Below, piece after piece: positions 10,055 to 29,236 of a stretch of DNA of 41,961 nucleotides (within the stretch, counting starts at the first letter, position 1; each line of letters opens with the position of its first letter). The translations under genes and the position numbers were made by a program. Source of the stretch: a virus; IMG/VR virus record IMGVR_UViG_3300010883_000096, positions 1 through 41,961 of that record; one strand, given 5' to 3'. A model generated the notes under the pieces. It worked only from the letters and a program-made list of their open reading frames with translations, had not been told where the DNA came from and did not search any database.

Positions 10055-10856
10055 TATTGTACTTAACGAACAAGAGTTCCTTTATCAGAACCTTCTACAG
10101 CACTACTCATTATGTGATGAGTGGATTATTGTAGAGGGTTGTTGTAAAGACTACCCTACGCATAATGTTACTTCGGAGGGTTTGTCCGGAGATGCAACGG
10201 CAGAGATTATCAAGTCTTTCCCTGACCCCGATAATAAGATTAAGTTTATTCAGTATGGTTTTACTGAGAAGGACGGGGAGCATGGTAAGAGTGAATTGCG
10301 GAATCAATACGCTGCTCGGATTGAAGAGACTTGTGTTGTAGTAGTTATTGATGCTGATGAGTTTTATCTTCAAGCTCAATTGAAAGAGATTATAAAGGTT
10401 ATGAAGAGTGGTCTCTATTCTTGTTGGAGAATACCCCAACTTCATTTTTGGCGTGACTTGGAGCATATTATTGTGGGTGGTTATTTTAATGTTCCACATA
10501 ATCGAGTTTATAACTGGCGGGCTCCTCTCCTCTATGAGGGGAATCATAATCACCCTGAATTCCCTGGAGGCCCTTATTCCTACGAAGTGGGCACTTATCG
10601 AAAGAGTGATAGGTCCCTAAATCTTACCAGGAAGGGTGCTAGTATAAGTGTTCCACATTGTTTTCATTTGGGCTTTGCAAAAGGCTCTGATAACATGCGA
10701 GATAAAACAGACTATTATTTGAACCGAGGGGAGAAGGCTACTCGCCCTGAGACTTCTCAATGCAGAGAAGCTTGGTTTAACGGGAGACTTCCACTTCAGT
10801 GTGAGGTCCTTTCTTGGGCAGGAGATCTTCCAGAAGTATTTAGAGGTGTAGAATGA
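10035..10856 (+). CDS. Glycosyltransferase family 2-like protein
   Basis: ATG 10035 is selected because the protein then begins MKTCFCSIVLNEQEFLYQNL, the normal first strand and NE motif of this GT2 subgroup; a longer in-frame start at 9990 would add residues without homologous character. The metal-binding DADEF (residues 106-110) follows a VVVVI strand. The remaining 160 residues are rich in Trp, Tyr and His (CWRIPQLHFWRDLE, and a PHCFHLGFAK segment), as in acceptor-binding halves. It overlaps both neighbours. Donor and acceptor are unknown. Confidence 0.8.
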   Translation: MKTCFCSIVLNEQEFLYQNLLQHYSLCDEWIIVEGCCKDYPTHNVTSEGLSGDATAEIIKSFPDPDNKIKFIQYGFTEKDGEHGKSELRNQYAARIEETCVVVVIDADEFYLQAQLKEIIKVMKSGLYSCWRIPQLHFWRDLEHIIVGGYFNVPHNRVYNWRAPLLYEGNHNHPEFPGGPYSYEVGTYRKSDRSLNLTRKGASISVPHCFHLGFAKGSDNMRDKTDYYLNRGEKATRPETSQCREAWFNGRLPLQCEVLSWAGDLPEVFRGVE

Positions 10857-11884
10857 ACTGTGGCATCGTGGGGTGGGGAGCTTGTACAGGTAACGGAGGG
10901 TGGAATTATGAACTGTCTCGGCATTGTCCTTGGATTACAAAATGGCTTTGCCCTGCTCATCCTAAGAAGGCTTACCACGATCCTTATGTCACCGGCGACC
11001 CAAAAGTAATCAAGTGTAAAAAGTCTGGTGATACTGCAAAATACATTTCCTTCTTGGAGAATCTGGACGCCTTACTTTTCATTGAGCGACCTTACATTGA
11101 GGGTTTCGATCTTCTGGGACACGCCCGGCATTTAGGGATCAAGACAATTTACTGCCCTATGTGGGAGTGGCATTGTACGGCTTCTCCGTGGACTCGGAAT
11201 GTGGATATAATTTGGTACGTCACCAAACACACAGAGCAGTATATCGAGGCCATGTCACCTAAGAAGAGTTGGGGAGACAGCAAGTTTTATTTGCCGTGGG
11301 GAGTTGATTTAGATCACTTTGAGTTCAAGCTTCGTACAGTCTGTGAGAAGTTTCTGTTTGTGAATGGCAACGGCGGAGTCATGTTACGCAAAGGCTCAGA
11401 TACTTTGTTTCAGGCGGCTCGGTATGTACCGGAGATACCTATCCTGTTCTTAACACAGAGCCTTAACTATCCTCCTGAGATACCTAGAAATGTTGAAGTG
11501 ATCCATAAGGAGTTTCCGGAGAAGAAGGATGTGTATCAGGAGGGAGATGTATTCTTAGCCCCTTCTCATTGGGAGGGCTTAGCTCACCAGCTTTACGAGG
11601 CTCAAGCATGTGGGATTCCTGTGGTCACTACAGATGCCCCTCCGATGAACGAGTGCGGAACACCCTTCTTAACCAAGACTAAAAGTTTCCGAAGTGTCAG
11701 CTTAGGCCGACAGAGGATTTCCAGTGTGGATGCCTCTGCTAACGATCTAGCCCTAACTATGCAGACTTTGTTTGGAGAGCATATTGAGGAAGAGAGTAAA
11801 TGGGGACGGCAAAGGATGGAGGAAAAGTATAACGTGGTTACTATTTGTGAGGAACTAGGAAGTAACATTAGGTCCTTTTTATGA
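10853..11884 (+). CDS. Glycosyltransferase family 4-like protein (GT-B fold)
   Basis: A 343-residue GT-B enzyme. The donor-binding half contains KGSDTLFQAARYVPEIPILF, then EKKDVYQEGDVFLAPSHWEG, then LYEAQACGIPVVTTDAPP, the classic glycosyl transferases group 1 ending with the E-x(7)-like acid in the nucleotide-sugar site. The N-terminal half begins with CGIVGWGACTGNGGW, a glycine-rich first loop. It starts four bases inside the previous gene (ATGA) and ends with an ATGA overlap to the next. It probably extends a glycan assembled by the cassette. Confidence 0.85.
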   Translation: MNCGIVGWGACTGNGGWNYELSRHCPWITKWLCPAHPKKAYHDPYVTGDPKVIKCKKSGDTAKYISFLENLDALLFIERPYIEGFDLLGHARHLGIKTIYCPMWEWHCTASPWTRNVDIIWYVTKHTEQYIEAMSPKKSWGDSKFYLPWGVDLDHFEFKLRTVCEKFLFVNGNGGVMLRKGSDTLFQAARYVPEIPILFLTQSLNYPPEIPRNVEVIHKEFPEKKDVYQEGDVFLAPSHWEGLAHQLYEAQACGIPVVTTDAPPMNECGTPFLTKTKSFRSVSLGRQRISSVDASANDLALTMQTLFGEHIEEESKWGRQRMEEKYNVVTICEELGSNIRSFL

Positions 11885-17074: not shown

Positions 17075-18067
17075 ATGAGAAGTTTAGTTACCGGAGGGGC
17101 CGGGTTTATTGGTTCCCATGTTGCAGAAAGGCTTTTAGCTGCGGGCCATTTTGTGGTCGTATTAGACGATCTCTCGGGAGGGTCTTTAGCGAATCTTCCG
17201 GAAGGAGTTGAATTTGAAGAGGGCAGCATCCTAGATGTAACCAAAGTTGATCAGCTTTTCGAGAAGTATAAGTTTGACTATGTGTACCATTTAGCCGCTT
17301 ACGCTGCGGAGAATTTGAGTCACTTCATCAAGAAGTTTAATTATGAGAATAATTTGATTGGGTCAGTTAATCTCATAAATGCTTCGGTTAATACTAACGT
17401 AAAGCACTTTGTTTTTACCTCCTCGGCTGCCGTGTATGGTCATAGCGACACTGGATGTAAAGAGATAGAGTATCCTACTCCCTGTGATTCTTACGGTATA
17501 TCTAAGTTAGCTGTAGAAGAGGAGTTGCGGGTCAGCCATGAGATGTTTGGATTAAACTATACAATTTTCCGACCTCACAATGTCTATGGCCCTCGACAGA
17601 ATGTGGGAGATAAGTACCGAAATGTAGTTGGCATATTTATGAACTGTTTGCGTCAAGATAAACCTATGACTATATTTGGAGATGGGGGACAGACTCGATG
17701 TTTTTCTTACATAGATGACGTAGCTCCTTATATTGTAAAAAGCCCCGTTATAGAGGCGGCTCGTAATGAGATTTTCAATATAGGGCATCCTTATTCAACC
17801 ACTATTACAGGCTTAGCTGCGATGGTTGCTAGTGTTATGGGGAAGACTTGTATCGTTACGCACCTCACAGGTCGTGCCGAGGCTTCTGAAGTTGCCGTAA
17901 GTCATGGGAAGTTTAAGCAGGTATTTCAGCCTTCCGATAGTTTAGCTTTGAAGCCAGGGTTGGAAGCTATGTTTGATTGGTTGAAATCAGCCGAGGTACG
18001 AGAGTCACCTCTTATGCCTGTAGAGATAACTAAGAATCTTCCAGAGAGTTGGAGGGTAGCCAAATGA
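17075..18067 (+). CDS. NAD-dependent sugar-nucleotide epimerase/dehydratase
   Basis: A short-chain dehydrogenase of the extended type, acting on nucleotide sugars (for example UDP-glucose or GDP-mannose). The 330-residue product has the NAD-binding GGAGFIG (residues 7-13), an acid after strand 2 (LDD, 30-32), YHLAA (71-75), the TSS strand (115-117) and the catalytic Tyr140-x-x-x-Lys144 pair. Length is typical. It sits immediately before a glycosyltransferase, and more transferases lie earlier in the window, so it most likely makes a donor sugar for phage-directed glycosylation. ATG 17075 lacks a strong SD (a GAAAGATTGAT stretch precedes). Confidence 0.9.
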   Translation: MRSLVTGGAGFIGSHVAERLLAAGHFVVVLDDLSGGSLANLPEGVEFEEGSILDVTKVDQLFEKYKFDYVYHLAAYAAENLSHFIKKFNYENNLIGSVNLINASVNTNVKHFVFTSSAAVYGHSDTGCKEIEYPTPCDSYGISKLAVEEELRVSHEMFGLNYTIFRPHNVYGPRQNVGDKYRNVVGIFMNCLRQDKPMTIFGDGGQTRCFSYIDDVAPYIVKSPVIEAARNEIFNIGHPYSTTITGLAAMVASVMGKTCIVTHLTGRAEASEVAVSHGKFKQVFQPSDSLALKPGLEAMFDWLKSAEVRESPLMPVEITKNLPESWRVAK

Positions 18068-19521
18068 CTCGTATTTTATATCTACCCCATACCTCCTCTC
18101 CTGATAGATTGAGTACTGATCATAGTTATGGCTGGGCTTCAAACATCTTTGCTAAGTGGATTAAGGCTGATCCTAACGTCTCAATTTATTGGCCTGTTCC
18201 TAGAGGAGCTATTAGAAAACAGCGAGAAGCTTTTTACAAGTTCTCTGACGAGGAGTTGAAGACCCGAGTTAAGCTTATTGAAGTGGAGACGGACATAACT
18301 CAAATTTTAGAGCAGTCCACTTTTCCCAAGAAATTGATTAACCTGTTTACGTTGGATCATGGGAGATACTATTTCGACATCTTGTTTTGTGAGAAACCTG
18401 CTTTGTTAGGGTGGTTCTTTAACAATTGCAATCTGTATAAATTTCGCCGGGAAGAGATACTGACTATCTGCAATATTCATTACGCTCTGAGCAGTGAAGA
18501 TAACATTGCTATTGCTAAGGAATTTGATGCTACTTACTATGCAAATTTGGCGTTGGCTGATGCCTATCTTTTTTGCAATAGTGAGGGCACCAGTGTGGAT
18601 TCTTTGAAGCAGGTGAAGACTAACATGAAGAGATGGTTGGCCCCTTCTCTTATCTCCAAGTTTTTAGACAAGCCTCGTTGGATGAAATTAAACTCCGATA
18701 TCGAGGAATTGTCTACTGTGTATGATGAATGGGATGGAACCAAGGGAGACGGCTTCCGAGTACATTTTGGATTCAGTATTAGCAACTTGTTTCACTTTAA
18801 AGATATCTTGTCGGTCTTACAGAAAGCCCGTTACTTGATAAAGGATCTGAAGTTTATTATCACTACTCCCAGTGGAAGTTTGGGGAGAGGTGGTGCAAAG
18901 ACTGACGACTCTTGGATGGAAGTTTATTTCCAGTGTCCTCGTCCTAAGTTTTTTCAGATAGCTCTCAAGAGCCATGTCTTCGTGGCGTGGTCAGTGATAA
19001 CGGGAGGTTTAAATCACGGCGGTATTATTGAAATGGCTCGTCTGGGAGTACTTCCTGTATTACATCGTAAGTCTATTCCTTTTCCGTGGGATGACTCTTA
19101 CCCCTTTATTTTTGAGACCGAGGAAGAGTTGATTGCCCTCTTAAAGTACATTAAGGCAAACTACACTTCTGAGCATGTTCAGTTACAGATTAAGGAGAAT
19201 CAGAGGCTTATAAACGAATTCAACATGAAGTGCGGTCCCTCTACTCTGATACAGGAATTCGTCGCTTTGAAGGACGATAGACCTCATTATCCTTACAACG
19301 CTTTTTCTGCCATCTTGCCGGAATTGCCTGATAGGATTACGATGGAAGAGCTTGTTCATTATGTTAAACATAAGTCTGATCTAAAGAAGGATTTAGACGA
19401 GATCAACTTTGTTACTGCCTTCAAAACGGGAACCAAAGCTGATCTTAGGTGGTACATGCTCAGTCATGGTTGGCGAGATGTCGGAGATACAAACAACGTT
19501 ATATTTGAAAGAGAAGGATAA
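18064..19521 (+). CDS. Glycosyltransferase (GT-B-like)
   Basis: ATG 18064 overlaps the epimerase stop (ATGA) and has SD GGAGGG; a TTG at 18049 is less likely. The 485-residue product has a C-terminal donor-binding half (VHFGFSISNLFHFKDILSVL, a KDLKFIITTPSG strand, and GGLNHGGIIEMARLGVLPVL), the arrangement seen in family 4/1 glycosyltransferases, where the invariant Glu sits in the IIEMARLG helix. The N-terminal half (residues 1-200) is acceptor-binding and unrecognised; the last 80 residues are an extra helical extension. It pairs with the epimerase. Confidence 0.7.
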   Translation: MTRILYLPHTSSPDRLSTDHSYGWASNIFAKWIKADPNVSIYWPVPRGAIRKQREAFYKFSDEELKTRVKLIEVETDITQILEQSTFPKKLINLFTLDHGRYYFDILFCEKPALLGWFFNNCNLYKFRREEILTICNIHYALSSEDNIAIAKEFDATYYANLALADAYLFCNSEGTSVDSLKQVKTNMKRWLAPSLISKFLDKPRWMKLNSDIEELSTVYDEWDGTKGDGFRVHFGFSISNLFHFKDILSVLQKARYLIKDLKFIITTPSGSLGRGGAKTDDSWMEVYFQCPRPKFFQIALKSHVFVAWSVITGGLNHGGIIEMARLGVLPVLHRKSIPFPWDDSYPFIFETEEELIALLKYIKANYTSEHVQLQIKENQRLINEFNMKCGPSTLIQEFVALKDDRPHYPYNAFSAILPELPDRITMEELVHYVKHKSDLKKDLDEINFVTAFKTGTKADLRWYMLSHGWRDVGDTNNVIFEREG

Positions 19522-19522
19522 A

Positions 19523-20275
19523 ATGAGAATACGAGAAGCGGTCTTAATTGACCTAAACCGATTACATCCAAACGATTTTAATCCTAACGAAATGACTATG
19601 GCAACTTTCTCCAAGTTGACAGATGAGATCAAGGAGGATGGTTTTAAAGACCCTTTGACAGTGATACCTGCTCCACCTGAGGCTGTTGAGTTGGCGTGGC
19701 CTGATGGCGACAACTTTTTAATTATGGCCGGGGAGCATAGGTATCGAGCGGCCACTGTTTTGGAGTTGGAAGCAATCCCCTGCTACATAGAAGAAGAATG
19801 GGATGAGCTTACCCAGAAGACCAAGACAGTCCGAAACAACCTCATTCGAGGGGACTTGAACACAGGTAAGTTTACACAACTTGTTAGGGACTTAGAAGAA
19901 AAATATGAAATAGACAACGAGGCTATGGCGGAACTTATGGGTTTTGATGAGACTTCCGAGATGGTCAAGAATCTTATTGTGGAGAAAGAGCGGCGGGAAA
20001 AGACTTTTCTTGACGGTCTATTAGAAGAGTCTAAGAAAGAGAAGCACGCTGTCGAATCTATTACCAGTATCGTCAGCACTATTTTTGAAGATGCAGGAGC
20101 GACGGTAGATCAGGGATATTTGATGTTCACCTTTAAAGGGGAGCTTCACATGGTTTTGCTTATGGATGTTGCCTCTAAGAAGGCAATTCAAGACATGGTA
20201 GAATACATTCGGTTAACAGGTGAAACTGCTACCGACTTTATTCGAGAAGCCATTGATCAAAAATTAGAAGATTAG
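19523..20275 (+). CDS. ParB-like nuclease-domain protein
   Basis: ATG 19523 with SD GAGAAGG. The 250-residue product has the N-terminal ParB/Sulfiredoxin-like fold: LIDLNRLHPNDFNPN, then a DEIKEDGFKDPLTV helix and the signature GEHRYRAA (residues 70-77) that binds CTP or ATP in this superfamily, followed by a short HTH-like region (EAMAELMGF). Such genes often sit directly upstream of terminase genes in phages, as here, and have been linked to packaging or DNA modification. The C-terminal helical half is not recognised. Its stop shares its G with repeat copy 6. Confidence 0.85.
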   Translation: MRIREAVLIDLNRLHPNDFNPNEMTMATFSKLTDEIKEDGFKDPLTVIPAPPEAVELAWPDGDNFLIMAGEHRYRAATVLELEAIPCYIEEEWDELTQKTKTVRNNLIRGDLNTGKFTQLVRDLEEKYEIDNEAMAELMGFDETSEMVKNLIVEKERREKTFLDGLLEESKKEKHAVESITSIVSTIFEDAGATVDQGYLMFTFKGELHMVLLMDVASKKAIQDMVEYIRLTGETATDFIREAIDQKLED

Positions 20276-20300: not shown

Positions 20301-20918
20301 ATGTCGTTAATAGAAACCTTGAAGGATTTAGACGTTGTATCCTCGGAGAGTTCTTCTGAAGGGCTTTCCGAAGAAATGATTCTTATCGAAGATGACATGC
20401 TTCGTAAGCAAGCACAGGTCTATGAGATGCACGAATTGCAGGGAATACCTGTGTCCGGAATTGCTGCGGCATTTGAGGTAAGTCAAAGCACTATTTATAA
20501 CTGGATCAGTGAAGAGAAAAGACGCTTTAGGGAAATCTTAGAAGTTCAGCCCAAGGCGGAAATCATCTCTGACTCCCTCCAGTTTCTCGGTAACTTACGA
20601 CAGATGGCTCTGTTTGAATCTAATCAAAGTGAGTCTTCTGTAGATGTTGATAGTTCTACTGGTATTGTATCTAAGAAGCCGGGAGGCTACATACGTCGAT
20701 TAAAATTCATGACTTTAGCTAAGAGTGTAGAAGCTTTACGCTTAGATTTGATGAAGGATACAGGAGTTCTACCCAAGGTTCCTGAGCATATCTACCACTC
20801 TCTGGGAGATGAGAAGAGGGTTGTGGGAGAAGGAACAGAGGTGGCAGAGGAAAGAACTGCCGAAGAGATAGCTACAAATATTACACGATTGATTACAACG
20901 GGAAGGGCTTTACCTTAA
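20301..20918 (+). CDS. Probable terminase small subunit (HTH protein)
   Basis: A 205-residue protein upstream of and coupled to the large terminase (TAATG overlap at 20916-20920). It has a helix-turn-helix (IPVSGIAAAFEVSQSTIYNWI, residues 49-69) after an acidic N-terminus, then long helices (RRLKFMTLAKSVEALRLDLM) and a disordered Glu-rich tail. Small terminases bind phage DNA with such an HTH and oligomerise through the helical region. The position makes this the best candidate; the sequence itself is only generically HTH. Confidence 0.75.
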   Translation: MSLIETLKDLDVVSSESSSEGLSEEMILIEDDMLRKQAQVYEMHELQGIPVSGIAAAFEVSQSTIYNWISEEKRRFREILEVQPKAEIISDSLQFLGNLRQMALFESNQSESSVDVDSSTGIVSKKPGGYIRRLKFMTLAKSVEALRLDLMKDTGVLPKVPEHIYHSLGDEKRVVGEGTEVAEERTAEEIATNITRLITTGRALP

Positions 20919-23683
20919 TGTCTATTTTAACTGAGTTTGAAGGTTTGCCTAAAGACGAGTTAAAGAGAATGGAGATGCTTCTTGAGATAAAAGAAGCTCG
21001 TCTTTCTTTTGCATTAGATCATCACGTTAATACTCGTGGTGATAGAATGGACTTTACACATTTTCCTCATATTCGTTCTCTCTACGAGTCTGTTGCAGCC
21101 CAGATTGTTTTACAAGGTTCAGTTCAGTCATTCAAAGCTGCTCCACTTGACAGTTTGGTGCATACACCGGGAGGTTGGCGAACGATGGGGCATCTGATGG
21201 TAGGCGATTTGGTATCTACGCCTAACGGGGAGCCTGCCCACATATCTCAGATTCAGCCCCGAGGTGTTCAACCTTTAATTAAGTTCACTTTGGATGATGG
21301 TAGGGAGCCTGAGACTACTGAGGATCATAGGTGGAAGGTGCTTAGAGGTACGCAGCGTAAGACTTTGAGTAAAGGTCGAAAGTCCCTTCAATGGAATTTA
21401 GCTACAAAGTTTGAAGTTCTAACTACCCATGAAATTATGGAGGCTATGGCAGATGGAACTCAACGATTTACAATACCTGTTCCGGAAGTTGAGGTGGAGA
21501 AACCCGCTTTGGATGTTCCTTTGGACCCCTACTTTGTAGGGTTGATGCTTGGTGATGGGGAGATACACGACCCCAATATTAGGTTTATCTCCGAGGATAC
21601 TGAGTTAGTGATTGCGGTAGATAAGGCTGTCTTTGATTTTGGTTTAGAGTTGAATCAGTATAAATATACGGCTAACTACTCTTTTAAGATACGTAATCCC
21701 GGCAGTCAGGAATTAGGACCTAAGATATTACGGGATAAGTTTGACGAGATAGGTTTGTTAGGAACTTACAGTGATACGAAGTTTATACCTCGGCAATATA
21801 AAGAAAGTTCGGTTGATCATCGTTTGGCTATTTTACAGGGAATTCTTGATACTGACGGTGCTGCCTGCGATCACGGAGGCGTGACTATTCGATTGGCCTC
21901 CGAGCAGTTAATTAAGGACATTCAAGAGATAGTGTGGTCTTTAGGAGGAGCCGCCAAGTACACTCAACGTGAGACTTCTTATACTAAGGATGGCAAAAAG
22001 ATTAAGTGTAAAGACTGTTATCTTTTAAACATATCTATGCCTTATCCTGTAGATTGTTTTCGATTGGAAAGAAAACGGGAGAAGTTATCACATAATCATC
22101 GTCGTGTCCGAACGTTGGGGGCAAAAATTGAATCAGTTGAGTATTCAGGCGAGAGTGAAGTTCAGTGCATCGTATTAAATGATGATGATCATCTTTATAT
22201 TATGGATGATTACGTGGTAACTCATAACAGCGAATGGGCTATCATTGATCATCTATCGGCGGCTTTTTGTGGTCTGTCTATTTTCTTCGTAGTGCCCAAA
22301 TTTGAGACTCGAACCACTTACGTACAGAACAGAATCAATCGTTGCGTAGAGAATGTTCCTGAGTACAAGAAGATTATGGGCAGTGGTTTCTTCGACTCGG
22401 TAGCTTTGAAGTCTTTCGGCAAGGGAACAGTTAAGTATGTTGGCTCTAACGTTATTGCTGACTTTACCGAATTCCCTGCGGATATGATATTTGTAGACGA
22501 ATTAGACGAATGTAATCAAGAGAATGTTACCTACGCTTTGGATAGAGTGAGGGCCTCACCTTATCAGTTTAGACGGTATCTTGCCAACCCTCGTGAAAAA
22601 GATACTGGCATAAGCGTTTTGTTCCGAGAGTCAGATCAGAGGGAGTGGGCCGTACCTTGTCTATTCTGTGGTAAGTATGCGGAGATGGATTGGTTTGAGA
22701 CAATCACCTCTTCTTTACAAGATAACAAGGGAAACGTAATTGACTACCAACTGAGAGATTCAGAGTGGGAAGTAGGCTGTGGCCGAGATGTACATGCCAT
22801 TTGTCCTTCCTGTGAGGGAGTTTTAGACAGAGGCAGTTTGAAGGGCCGGTGGATACCTCATAATCCCACTTCTGCTATTGAGGGGTATCATATTTCTATG
22901 CTATGTAGCTTGATTAATAGTGTCTCCGGAATGTGGACACAGTTCTCTTCTGCCATAGGTGATCCGGTTGCAATGAAGCATTTCTATAATTCTAGTTTGG
23001 GCTTGCCTTACAGTGCGGCGGGAAGTAAGGTAACTACTACCCTACTTGACAGATGCGTAGAACCTTCGTTTAACTTTTCACATTACGAAGACTTTTCTTG
23101 TATCGTGGAGAATGAGCACCCTGGACCGTGTAGTATGGGAATCGATGTGGGCAAGAACTTCGATGTTCGTATTTCTCACGTGGGTTCTAGGGGAACTCGG
23201 AAAGCTGTGTTCATAGGTAAGTTTAGGTCTGCGGAAGAGATTTATAATCTTGTTGATAGATATAACGTTGATGTTGGAGTTATCGACTTTGGACCGGAGA
23301 CTAGGTTAGCTCAAGAGATACAAGAGAATGCTAACTGTGATATGTGGCTATGTCGTTTTAAGGGAGAGGGAAAAGAGACAAAGAAGAATTTAGATTTAAA
23401 CAATAGGATTGTAAATATTGACCGAACAGAGGCTATGGATAAGTCCTATGCTGAGATGGTTAACAGGAGAAATCTTCTACCTGAGAACTACGCAGGTATT
23501 TTGTCCGGGGTGTACGTGCAGGAAGTTTGTATGCCGGTGAGGGAGATAGTTACTGATAAGAAAGGCAACGCTCGTTACACTTGGATTAAAGGGAAAGATC
23601 ACCATAGACTTGCTGATACCTACGATACCTTGGCTGCTGAGATGATCAAAGAGACCATCTTAGATGAAGTGTTCGTCAACTAA
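20918..23683 (+). CDS. Terminase large subunit precursor (GpA-like) with internal intein
   Basis: A 921-residue precursor that should splice to a 557-residue packaging motor. The N-extein (1-73) ends QGSVQSFK, the first part of the ATPase P-loop; the C-extein (438-921) starts SEWAIIDH, completing it. Walker B is MIFVDELDEC. A GpA-like zinc-binding patch (CLFCGKYAEMDWF with later CPSC) follows, then a nuclease domain with Asp-rich motifs GIDVGKN, VGVIDFGPET and DTYDTLAAEM, which cuts concatemeric DNA. It starts with a TAATG overlap to terS. In the reconstructed P-loop (GSVQSFKS) the usual Gly before Lys is Phe, which is unusual. Confidence 0.92.
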   Translation: MSILTEFEGLPKDELKRMEMLLEIKEARLSFALDHHVNTRGDRMDFTHFPHIRSLYESVAAQIVLQGSVQSFKAAPLDSLVHTPGGWRTMGHLMVGDLVSTPNGEPAHISQIQPRGVQPLIKFTLDDGREPETTEDHRWKVLRGTQRKTLSKGRKSLQWNLATKFEVLTTHEIMEAMADGTQRFTIPVPEVEVEKPALDVPLDPYFVGLMLGDGEIHDPNIRFISEDTELVIAVDKAVFDFGLELNQYKYTANYSFKIRNPGSQELGPKILRDKFDEIGLLGTYSDTKFIPRQYKESSVDHRLAILQGILDTDGAACDHGGVTIRLASEQLIKDIQEIVWSLGGAAKYTQRETSYTKDGKKIKCKDCYLLNISMPYPVDCFRLERKREKLSHNHRRVRTLGAKIESVEYSGESEVQCIVLNDDDHLYIMDDYVVTHNSEWAIIDHLSAAFCGLSIFFVVPKFETRTTYVQNRINRCVENVPEYKKIMGSGFFDSVALKSFGKGTVKYVGSNVIADFTEFPADMIFVDELDECNQENVTYALDRVRASPYQFRRYLANPREKDTGISVLFRESDQREWAVPCLFCGKYAEMDWFETITSSLQDNKGNVIDYQLRDSEWEVGCGRDVHAICPSCEGVLDRGSLKGRWIPHNPTSAIEGYHISMLCSLINSVSGMWTQFSSAIGDPVAMKHFYNSSLGLPYSAAGSKVTTTLLDRCVEPSFNFSHYEDFSCIVENEHPGPCSMGIDVGKNFDVRISHVGSRGTRKAVFIGKFRSAEEIYNLVDRYNVDVGVIDFGPETRLAQEIQENANCDMWLCRFKGEGKETKKNLDLNNRIVNIDRTEAMDKSYAEMVNRRNLLPENYAGILSGVYVQEVCMPVREIVTDKKGNARYTWIKGKDHHRLADTYDTLAAEMIKETILDEVFVN
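21137..22228 (+). mobile_element. Intein with LAGLIDADG homing endonuclease inside the TerL Walker A motif
   Basis: Residues 74-437 of the precursor (364 aa) form the intein. It starts with Ala (AAPLDSLVHTPGGW), so it is a class of intein lacking the usual Cys1/Ser1. Block A is followed by GDLVSTPNG, and block B is TEDH (134-137). Two LAGLIDADG motifs occur: VGLMLGDGEI (207-216) and LAILQGILDTDG (303-314). The C-terminal blocks are DDHLYIMDDYVVTHN, with terminal His-Asn followed by Ser+1. The insertion point lies between the P-loop Lys and Ser, a functionally essential site where precise splicing is needed for activity. Confidence 0.93.
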
Positions 23684-23713: not shown

Positions 23714-25474
23714 ATGTCGGACGTAGAAGTTTTAAAAGAAGGTCCTCTTCACGACGCTATGTTAGCTAACGCTGAAAAAGAGGGTGAAGAAGAGACAATT
23801 GAGGAAGTTCATATAGTTGGAGAAGATGGAGAAGTAGTAGCAAATAACTCTGATATTATGAAGGCTTTGCTTAATCAGGGTATGCGGGGCTTTGATACAG
23901 AGAGGATTCATAAAGAAGCCGAAAATAGTCATCTCATAGATGTGGCTAAATCTATTGTGGATTCTACTACACAGACTCAGACAGAATTGGGGGACTCTGA
24001 TTTATCCACAGCTAAGTTTGTTCAACCTCCTTATCCTCCTCAGCTACTCTCTGATTTCTTAGAGGTTGATCCTGTTCACTACAGGTCAGTCGTCACTAAG
24101 GTTAATGACAGTATTGCCCGAGATTATGAACTCTCTGCAACGGAGTCCGTCAAGATTGAGGGAGATGATTCTTCGGTTGGGATTCCTGCCGCAGAGCTTG
24201 CTTTACAAGTCAATGCTGTTGAGGAGTTTATCCGAACTGCTAATGACGTTATTGGCTTTAAGGGAGTTTTGTTTAGAGCCGCAATGGATTATGAAGCTAT
24301 TGGGTGGGGTGCTTTTGAAGTAGTACGCTCCCGAGACATGAAGATTCGATATCTTGCTCATGTGCCTGCTCAACGTCTTAGAGTGTTGCGGGGCTGGAAG
24401 GGTTTTGTAGAAGATCTTGGTAATAACAAATTGAACTATTATCAACCTTTTGGTCGTAAAGTCAAAGCTGTTGGCAGGAAAGATGTTGTAACAAATAAGG
24501 TTCCTTTTTATGATCCTCTGAAAGATGGGGAGCTTGCTCCTAGGGGAGGGGCTTTAGAGTGGAATCTTATTGACCGGACGAACGGGAAGCCTCTGGGAAG
24601 TTCTACTATAGGGGGTGATAAGGTAGCGAATGAGTTACTGTGGGTTCCTAAGCACCATAGTAACACTATTTACTATGGGTATTCTGATGTTGTTCCGGCT
24701 GTTACTGACGTTATAGCTAATGCTAAGATCAGGGAATTCGTACTTCAGTTCTTCGAGCACAATACTATTCCACGGTATGCTATTATTGTGCAGGGAGCCA
24801 AGTTATCTGATAAGGCTCTGAAGGCTATTACTGAATATTTCAGTACTCACGTTAAAGGAAAAAGTCATAAGACTTTGATTATTCCTTTGCGTAATAGCAA
24901 CATGAAAGTTACTTTTGAGAAGCTTGCTACGGATGAACAAGAGGGTTCTTTCCAGCAAACCAAGAAGAATAATTCTCAAAGCATTATGACCGCTCATGGC
25001 CTATCTGCGGCTTTGTTAGGCATCAACGATGCGGCTAGTCTAGGTTCGGGAAAAGGCTTGTCTCAAGCTGAGATTTATAAGGATAGAGTTGTCACTCCTT
25101 CTCAAAGTCGATGGGAAGAATCTCTGAATCTATTGTTCCAATTAGGTCTAGGTGTAACTAAGGTTAAGCTTAAATTTGACCCTCTGGATATCCGAGATCG
25201 TGAAGCGGATATGCGGCGATTCACTCAGTACCTTGATAGAGGTGTATTGACAATTAATCAGGTATTGACTGCTACGGGTCTTGGCCCTCCGGTTAAAGGT
25301 GGAGATAGAAACTTTATACGATTAGGAAAAACTCTTGTGTTTGTTGATGAGTTGAATGATATGAAGAGTCCTAACCCTAATGAGGGGTTGACAGATAAAG
25401 GCAATCCGGGCGATAAGGCTCAACCTAAAGGCAGAGAGCCCTTTGATAACATTGAAGGAGGGAATGAAGTTTGA
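23714..25474 (+). CDS. Phage portal protein
   Basis: A 586-residue protein forming the dodecameric portal through which DNA enters the capsid and to which the tail attaches. Recognised by position after terL and by the core pattern of PBSX/DUF935-type portals: VDPVHYRSVVTKVNDSIA, then AAMDYEAIGWGAFEVV, then a HSNTIYYGYSDVVPAV and FFEHNTIPRYAIIVQGAKLS stretch. A Gln-rich segment (EQEGSFQQTKKNN) and the C-terminal stem and crown follow. The acidic N-terminus (1-60) and the charged C-terminal tail are probably disordered. ATG 23714 is only weakly preceded by AATAGG. Confidence 0.9.
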   Translation: MSDVEVLKEGPLHDAMLANAEKEGEEETIEEVHIVGEDGEVVANNSDIMKALLNQGMRGFDTERIHKEAENSHLIDVAKSIVDSTTQTQTELGDSDLSTAKFVQPPYPPQLLSDFLEVDPVHYRSVVTKVNDSIARDYELSATESVKIEGDDSSVGIPAAELALQVNAVEEFIRTANDVIGFKGVLFRAAMDYEAIGWGAFEVVRSRDMKIRYLAHVPAQRLRVLRGWKGFVEDLGNNKLNYYQPFGRKVKAVGRKDVVTNKVPFYDPLKDGELAPRGGALEWNLIDRTNGKPLGSSTIGGDKVANELLWVPKHHSNTIYYGYSDVVPAVTDVIANAKIREFVLQFFEHNTIPRYAIIVQGAKLSDKALKAITEYFSTHVKGKSHKTLIIPLRNSNMKVTFEKLATDEQEGSFQQTKKNNSQSIMTAHGLSAALLGINDAASLGSGKGLSQAEIYKDRVVTPSQSRWEESLNLLFQLGLGVTKVKLKFDPLDIRDREADMRRFTQYLDRGVLTINQVLTATGLGPPVKGGDRNFIRLGKTLVFVDELNDMKSPNPNEGLTDKGNPGDKAQPKGREPFDNIEGGNEV

Positions 25475-28120: not shown

Positions 28121-29236
28121 ATGTTTAGCCATCACACCAATCTGAATGAGCCTTTGACTTGCCTGAACAGTCCTCCCGCTAAAGTTTGTCTGAAGATGGT
28201 GGGAGGTATTGGGGATTGTATTATTGCTTTAGGTGGGGCGGCGAAAGCATTATCTCAGCAGGGCTATGAAGTTACTGTATCTTGCCGAGAGTTTCAAAAA
28301 CCTTTAATTACTCACATGAGTGGAGTCCATTCTTACGTTTCACCCTCGACTCTCAATGATCCTAGTGCAAGGTCAAAGTTTGACGCTTTAATTGATTTTG
28401 CTAAAGTGTTTAATTCAAGGCGAGCTTTGAAATCGGGTGGTTATTATCGTTTAGCTAGTGAGAGATTACAAACTTCTTTTGGACCGGGAGAATTTACTTT
28501 TCCTCGAAAAGAGATCTATAAAAAAGTTGTCGCATTACATGCAGGAGCAAGTAATTTTAATCGATGTTGGCCCATAGATAAATGGACACGCTTAGCTGAA
28601 ATTTTAGTGGGAAACGGATACACTGTAGCTTGGCTTGGGACTAAAGATGATTTTGGATTTAATGCTTCTCGTGTATTTAAACTAAGTGATGTTACTGACG
28701 ATTTAACTCTTCAAGCTCAATCTCTAGCCGGATATCATTACTTTATTGGAAATGATTCTGGCTTTGCTCATATTGCGGGAGTCTTGGGGATACCGGGGAG
28801 AGTCATTTTTTCTGTTATTCATCCTGACGATGTTATCTCCTTTTACCCTAGTCTTTCCGGAGCACACTGTTTTTCAGAAGACAATCAACCAAGTTTGAGT
28901 TTATACCCTGACGATGACAGGGCCGAAGCTAATATGAAAGAAATTTCAGTAGAAGATGTTTTGGAAGGAACTCCCTTTAGTGCAGACGTTTGCACTCCTT
29001 TAGACAGGACCGCAGGGAAGAAACTACGCTTGGGAGTCTGTGACGTATCGCAGGAAGTAGTTAATTATTTACAAGAATACTTTGAGATTGTATCCGAAGA
29101 ATACGACTTACTTTTAAAGAAGGAAGAGACTTGCTATTTCATACATTCTGAAAAAGGCAAGGCTCAAGTGCTAGGCTCTAATCCTGAGTCTATTAGAACT
29201 GCTATTCGAGAAATCTCAAGTACTATTAATACGTAG
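28121..29236 (+). CDS. Glycosyltransferase family 9-like protein (heptosyltransferase type)
   Basis: A 371-residue GT-B enzyme of the ADP-heptose:LPS heptosyltransferase group. Visible features are KMVGGIGDCIIALGGAAKAL near the N-terminus (the GT9 first glycine loop), ALHAGASNFNRCWPIDKWTRLAE in the middle, and HYFIGNDSGFAHIAGVLGIPG (the conserved donor-site segment). Residues 287-292 are encoded by a variant copy of the dispersed motif; beyond them is an extra 80-residue domain not typical of GT9. It stands apart from the main transferase cassette, right after the capsid terminator, and probably decorates a phage or host surface polymer. Confidence 0.82.
   Translation: MFSHHTNLNEPLTCLNSPPAKVCLKMVGGIGDCIIALGGAAKALSQQGYEVTVSCREFQKPLITHMSGVHSYVSPSTLNDPSARSKFDALIDFAKVFNSRRALKSGGYYRLASERLQTSFGPGEFTFPRKEIYKKVVALHAGASNFNRCWPIDKWTRLAEILVGNGYTVAWLGTKDDFGFNASRVFKLSDVTDDLTLQAQSLAGYHYFIGNDSGFAHIAGVLGIPGRVIFSVIHPDDVISFYPSLSGAHCFSEDNQPSLSLYPDDDRAEANMKEISVEDVLEGTPFSADVCTPLDRTAGKKLRLGVCDVSQEVVNYLQEYFEIVSEEYDLLLKKEETCYFIHSEKGKAQVLGSNPESIRTAIREISSTINT
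28980..28995 (+). repeat. Dispersed 16-bp motif, copy 8 (intragenic variant)
   Basis: GTGCAGACGTTTGCAC lies inside the GT9 reading frame (SADVCT), at the boundary between the GT9 core and its extra C-terminal domain. Arms are perfect; the centre differs at one base. It may be a fossil intergenic junction. Confidence 0.6.

Follow-up and report, generated by a model that had tools for sequence, protein, structure and literature searches.

An intein with class 3 residues and a LAGLIDADG domain in the P-loop of a GpA-type phage terminase

Among mycobacteriophage proteins, the terminase large subunit (TerL) is the one that most often hosts inteins, and its P-loop is a known insertion site there: of the TerL1 inteins, which occupy sites a-e, TerL1-a is inserted after the invariant Lys and before the Thr (PMC5050341). 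The inteins of this set that group with the class 3 intein DnaB-b are TerL1-c and TerL1-e, neither of which is in the P-loop (PMC5050341). Class 3 inteins are defined by a noncontiguous Trp-Cys-Thr (WCT) triplet at positions B:12, F:4 and G:5 (PMC5050341, PMC7664689), which occurs in no other class (PMC7664689). In their mechanism the block F Cys attacks first and residue 1 is no nucleophile (PMC5222942), and they generally lack the Thr of the TxxH motif (PMC6195587). These four sources supply the class 3 definition and mechanism used below.

Class 3 inteins in a P-loop are known in DnaB (PMC6195587). The mycobacterial examples, MsmDnaBi1 (6bs8) and MchDnaB1 (6rix/6riy), share with the intein described here Ala at position 1, the WCT triplet, the block B His and a Thr-His-Asn end, and in MsmDnaBi1, as here, the insertion is in the P-loop and Ser+1 doubles as the Walker A Ser (PMC6195587). 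MsmDnaBi1, however, is a mini-intein without an endonuclease in a bacterial helicase, whereas the present intein has a full LAGLIDADG domain and is found in a GpA-type terminase with a Walker A motif that lacks GK; the TerL1 inteins, by comparison, have a host of the Terminase_1 family. Class 3 inteins with LAGLIDADG domains are found at GK followed by Ser or Thr in P-loop NTPases of, for example, Klebsiella phages Miami and N1M2, Pseudomonas phages PhiPA3 and EL and Mycobacterium phage Phrappuccino. These match the full 364 residues at 30-35% identity, with the same WCT triplet and the same junction of Lys with Ser, Thr or Cys, but they are mostly in helicases or other terminases with a canonical GK rather than FK. 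The yeast V-ATPase intein PI-SceI (VMA1 intein) shares the HINT plus LAGLIDADG architecture but is a class 1 intein (Cys1) and only about 15% identical.

The sequence studied (the window) is positions 1-41,961 of the IMG/VR virus record IMGVR_UViG_3300010883_000096. The terminase gene, its parts and its two neighbours are all on the + strand. ORF analysis gave a frame of 921 codons at 20918-23683 with no internal stop. Its extein parts exceeded the cut-offs of both Pfam models for GpA-type terminases, GpA_ATPase (PF05876; 4.2e-16, 59.8 bits, cut-off 25.6) and GpA_nuclease (PF20454; 5.7e-5, 22.9 bits, cut-off 22.5), and matched the PHROG family phrog_675, terminase large subunit (3.8e-65). The gene is flanked by a likely terminase small subunit gene directly upstream (20301-20918), encoding a helix-turn-helix (HTH) protein of 205 residues with weak matches (E about 0.005) to phrog_3218 and phrog_2538, and by a portal gene (23714-25474; Pfam Phage_portal, 2e-16). 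The gene that immediately precedes the probable small terminase, at 19409-20275, encodes a ParB-like nuclease/partition protein (phrog_26387, 2e-32). Sugar genes are present near structural genes (10853-11884, 17075-18067 and 28121-29236); they encode a glycosyltransferase, an NAD-dependent epimerase/dehydratase (Pfam, 4e-52) and, directly after a capsid-like gene, a heptosyltransferase-like protein (Pfam Glyco_transf_9). A tRNA search of the window found none.

The 921-residue product is a TerL interrupted by an intein, and the interruption falls exactly between the Lys and Ser of Walker A (GSVQSFK↓SEWAI, the arrow marking the intein). The N-extein (20918-21136, 73 residues) ends in IVLQGSVQSFK, the first half of the motif. 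The intein comprises precursor residues 74-437 (364 residues, Ala1 to Asn364), starting AAPLDS and ending VVTHN, and is encoded at 21137-22228; a preliminary description had correctly recognised it but had given it the coordinates of the whole precursor gene. The C-extein (22229-23683) begins with Ser+1, the Walker A Ser, and contains the nuclease domain as well as DMIFVDE, which resembles a Walker B motif, as judged from the Pfam and PHROG matches and the ortholog alignment (A3).

When either the extein or the intein served as a single query sequence against viral contigs, only a near-identical sister contig was matched, and a degenerate pattern and alignment queries were needed to reach orthologs. 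The degenerate DNA pattern, IVLQGSVQSFKSEW, which represents the P-loop without the intein, matched nine viral contigs, all of which encode uninterrupted terminases. The alignment-based search gave twelve viral loci with TerL orthologs, the intein being present in none of the twelve (about eight distinct sequences when duplicate contigs are allowed for). These orthologs are 56-58% identical to the spliced window terminase, and in all of them Ser-Glu-Trp directly follows the Lys in a contiguous VQ[S/C][F/L]KSEW. The empty site thus defines both junctions with single-residue precision, and bears out the proposed split of Walker A between Lys and Ser. Few parts of the protein are as well conserved as the insertion region, in which I63-Q70 and F72-W76 are invariant in A3. 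The segment was also considered as a genuine TerL domain, which the preliminary description had named as the finding that would overturn it; comparison with intein-free TerL at the same site ruled this out, the segment being precisely absent. An intein in the P-loop of this terminase is therefore confirmed, far beyond chance, because the intein has many phage homologs and its site is empty in intein-free orthologs. No relative was found when the spliced terminase was compared with the PDB using phmmer or when genome_contigs was scanned with the TerL alignment, and a structure prediction for the whole precursor (pLDDT 38.6) was unusable for placing the intein in the folded terminase.

The Phe preceding the Walker A Lys had been remarked on as unusual. 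The residue is real but is no anomaly, as it is Phe in the intein-free orthologs found, or Leu in one of them (L040). More distant relatives, Geobacillus phage GBK1 and Bacillus phage Curly, have Glu at this position (RQVEKS). On the sequences compared, the deviant Walker A thus characterises the terminase group as a whole and is not specific to the window gene, and the idea of an oddity induced by the intein was rejected, Phe being the family norm.

One ortholog, L046 (IMG/VR 3300009537_001754), carries the same intein at the same site, with the junctions STQSFK↓AQSV...VVTHN↓TEM. It is 60% identical to the window in the intein, 59% in the N-extein and 51% in the C-extein; within the intein the N-splicing, endonuclease and C-splicing parts are 64%, 60% and 62% identical. 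A third copy, in the sister contig, which is cut at one end, is 99.9% identical to the window in DNA with two small gaps, and at such identity a count of synonymous and nonsynonymous changes is uninformative. The intein is therefore polymorphic for presence and absence among TerL orthologs, and as most of these are without it, it must have been gained or lost within the family.

By tblastn, 767 phage records contain homologs of the intein, and in 674 of these records the match covers 80% or more of it; scanning viral contigs gave at least 585 confirmed relatives. The 79 sequences counted here are the window intein and the 78 relatives nearest to it; these were chosen by similarity to it, and the fractions describe its neighbourhood rather than class 3 inteins as a whole. 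The junction is Lys followed by Ser, Thr or Cys in 74 of the 78, with a canonical P-loop, GK followed by Ser or Thr, in 68, and the host proteins are terminases, DNA helicases, primases and an SbcC-like protein. An FK preceding the junction is confined, among the 79 sequences, to the window and L046. In a quick tree these two form a pair (support 100) within a 15-row group of moderate support (90) that is mostly in terminases of other families. N-junctions without a P-loop Lys were seen in L083 (2501-3598), L093 (2495-3532) and L122/L124 (2480-3616), where the intein follows VICY, FLPG or GPRG; either these relatives depart from the family's preference for P-loops, or their boundaries have been misplaced.

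Some relatives deserve separate mention. A 29% identical intein in the terminase of Acidovorax phage ACF1 (L006, 208-3432), inserted at GPARTGK↓T, has Cys1 together with a complete WCT triplet, giving it both possible initiating nucleophiles. Inteins of the same class 3 family were found in TraD-type coupling proteins of plasmid pKAZ5 (KR827394; L126, 2501-3607) and of the Methylorubrum extorquens AM1 megaplasmid (L127, 2501-3595). They are about 36% identical to the window intein, with the WCT residues visible, and split the P-loops of these conjugation coupling proteins (GTTGSGK↓T and GTTGAGK↓T). Plasmid pKAZ5 is a conjugative IncC plasmid whose intein-bearing gene is annotated simply as traD; four more enterobacterial plasmid records have the same match without annotation, and a literature search for intein, TraD and IncC together found no paper. 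The PHROG families phrog_36964, phrog_19299, phrog_15 and phrog_510 match the intein itself (21137-22228) and seem to derive from proteins that contain inteins. Such profiles could mislabel any protein with a similar intein as a terminase or primase.

The two LAGLIDADG motifs that had been reported are present: VGLMLGDGE at 21536-21562 and LQGILDTDGA at 21833-21862. In a profile alignment D140 (first motif; conserved in 77 of the 79 sequences), K215 (21779-21781; 78 of 79) and D240 (second motif; all 79) face D218, K301 and D326 of PI-SceI. These, with K403, we take to be the catalytic residues of that enzyme, so three of the four are matched; K313, kept in 76 of the 79, fits K403 in spacing but is outside the aligned block. 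Pfam Hom_end scored 21.0 bits against the intein, just below its cut-off of 21.1. An AlphaFold model of the intein (37 aligned sequences, pLDDT 93.7) showed a HINT domain with a LAGLIDADG domain, and the best PDB matches given by Foldseek were structures of PI-SceI (E 5e-18, TM-score 0.70 by query); other intein endonucleases ranked next. The homing endonuclease thus looks intact. It is probably still active, and the suggestion that the element may be mobile is plausible.

Another reading is that the intein is fixed: still able to splice, but with an endonuclease that no longer cuts, and inherited vertically with terL. This departs from the explanation preferred here in the homing step only. 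The roughly equal divergence of intein and extein between the window and L046 would suit long residence, as would the terminase hosts of the nearest other inteins in the tree. Intact catalytic Asp and Lys residues and an endonuclease part conserved at 60% argue against it, as does the lack of the intein in most orthologs found, and we regard a fixed intein as possible but rather unlikely.

The intein has HINT blocks A, B, F and G, and its terminal His-Asn is followed by Ser. Block B (TTEDHRW, 21314-21334) provides T61, H64 (79 of 79 sequences) and W66 (78 of 79); block F (VQCIVL) provides C344 (22166-22168; 79 of 79), which aligns with the block F Cys of 6bs8; and block G (22220-22228) provides T362 (77 of 79, Ser in the other two), H363 and N364 (both 79 of 79). 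W66, C344 and T362 are at B:12, F:4 and G:5 and so form the WCT triplet, which is also complete in each of the 17 phage-set sequences examined, and the profile can be aligned to class 3 inteins of known crystal structure, 6bs8, 6rix and 6riy. Ala at position 1 is found in 48 of the 79 sequences, with other residues in the remainder. The TxxH motif, T61-E-D-H64, retains its Thr, as in 11 of the 79. The element is almost certainly a class 3 intein that splices at the junctions with K73 and S438.

The WCT triplet, with an internal Cys as the initiator, explains Ala1. The preliminary description, which can be said to be partly supported overall, was right about Ala1, the TxxH motif and the terminal His-Asn. 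It had treated Ala in place of Cys or Ser as an oddity, and the class 3 assignment, through WCT and C344, corrects this. The conserved splicing residues also speak against its reservation that they might be nonfunctional.

A role for the intein as a control point can be envisaged, in which the packaging ATPase is withheld until conditional splicing, with timing or stress sensed through the class 3 Cys chemistry. The splicing domain has no Cys besides C344; C244, C291, C294 and C307 are all in the endonuclease part. There is no equivalent of Cys48, the redox-sensing Cys of MsmDnaBi1, and this lack of the partner Cys of the mycobacterial switch makes a redox switch of the DnaBi1 form unlikely and counts against the redox form of the proposal; a control point of any kind seems very unlikely. 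A class 2 intein, in which Ser+1 would attack the N-terminal junction directly, bypassing Ala1 with no internal Cys involved, would be consistent with Ala1, Ser+1 and the retained Thr of TxxH. However, W66, C344 and T362 are near-invariant whatever residue is at position 1 and WCT is found only in class 3 (PMC7664689), so that class 2 is highly improbable. A degenerate element unable to splice, being either a pseudogene or two halves acting as separate polypeptides, is scarcely credible: Ala1 might be read as decay, but the 921-codon frame is open, all catalytic residues are kept, and the intein of L046 is conserved like its exteins with splicing and endonuclease parts alike, as expected of a working element under selection.

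The class 3 reading suggests the following course. After translation of the GpA-family TerL precursor the HINT fold would assemble, and C344 would attack the Lys73-Ala1 peptide bond to give a branched thioester. Ser+1 would take over the N-extein, N364 would cyclise with assistance from H363 to release the intein, and an acyl shift would restore the native loop sequence, ...QSFKSEW..., so that the packaging ATPase becomes active. The endonuclease domain may cut the intein-free terL of co-infecting relatives at the conserved P-loop coding sequence, and repair would then spread the intein. Both splicing and DNA cutting we infer from the sequence, its conservation and the pattern of presence and absence among orthologs. 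There are sound grounds to expect that the packaging motor should function only after the intein has been excised.

None of the papers covered by a search of one open-access library describes a GpA-type terminase with a class 3 intein. The window intein is a clear addition to a known and widespread kind, and gives a residue-exact case, with both empty and occupied orthologs, of an endonuclease-bearing class 3 intein in a GpA-type terminase without Gly before the Walker A Lys. It shows the P-loop junction of Lys with Ser or Thr to be the usual site of its relatives, and supports the published view that phages are the reservoir of class 3 inteins.
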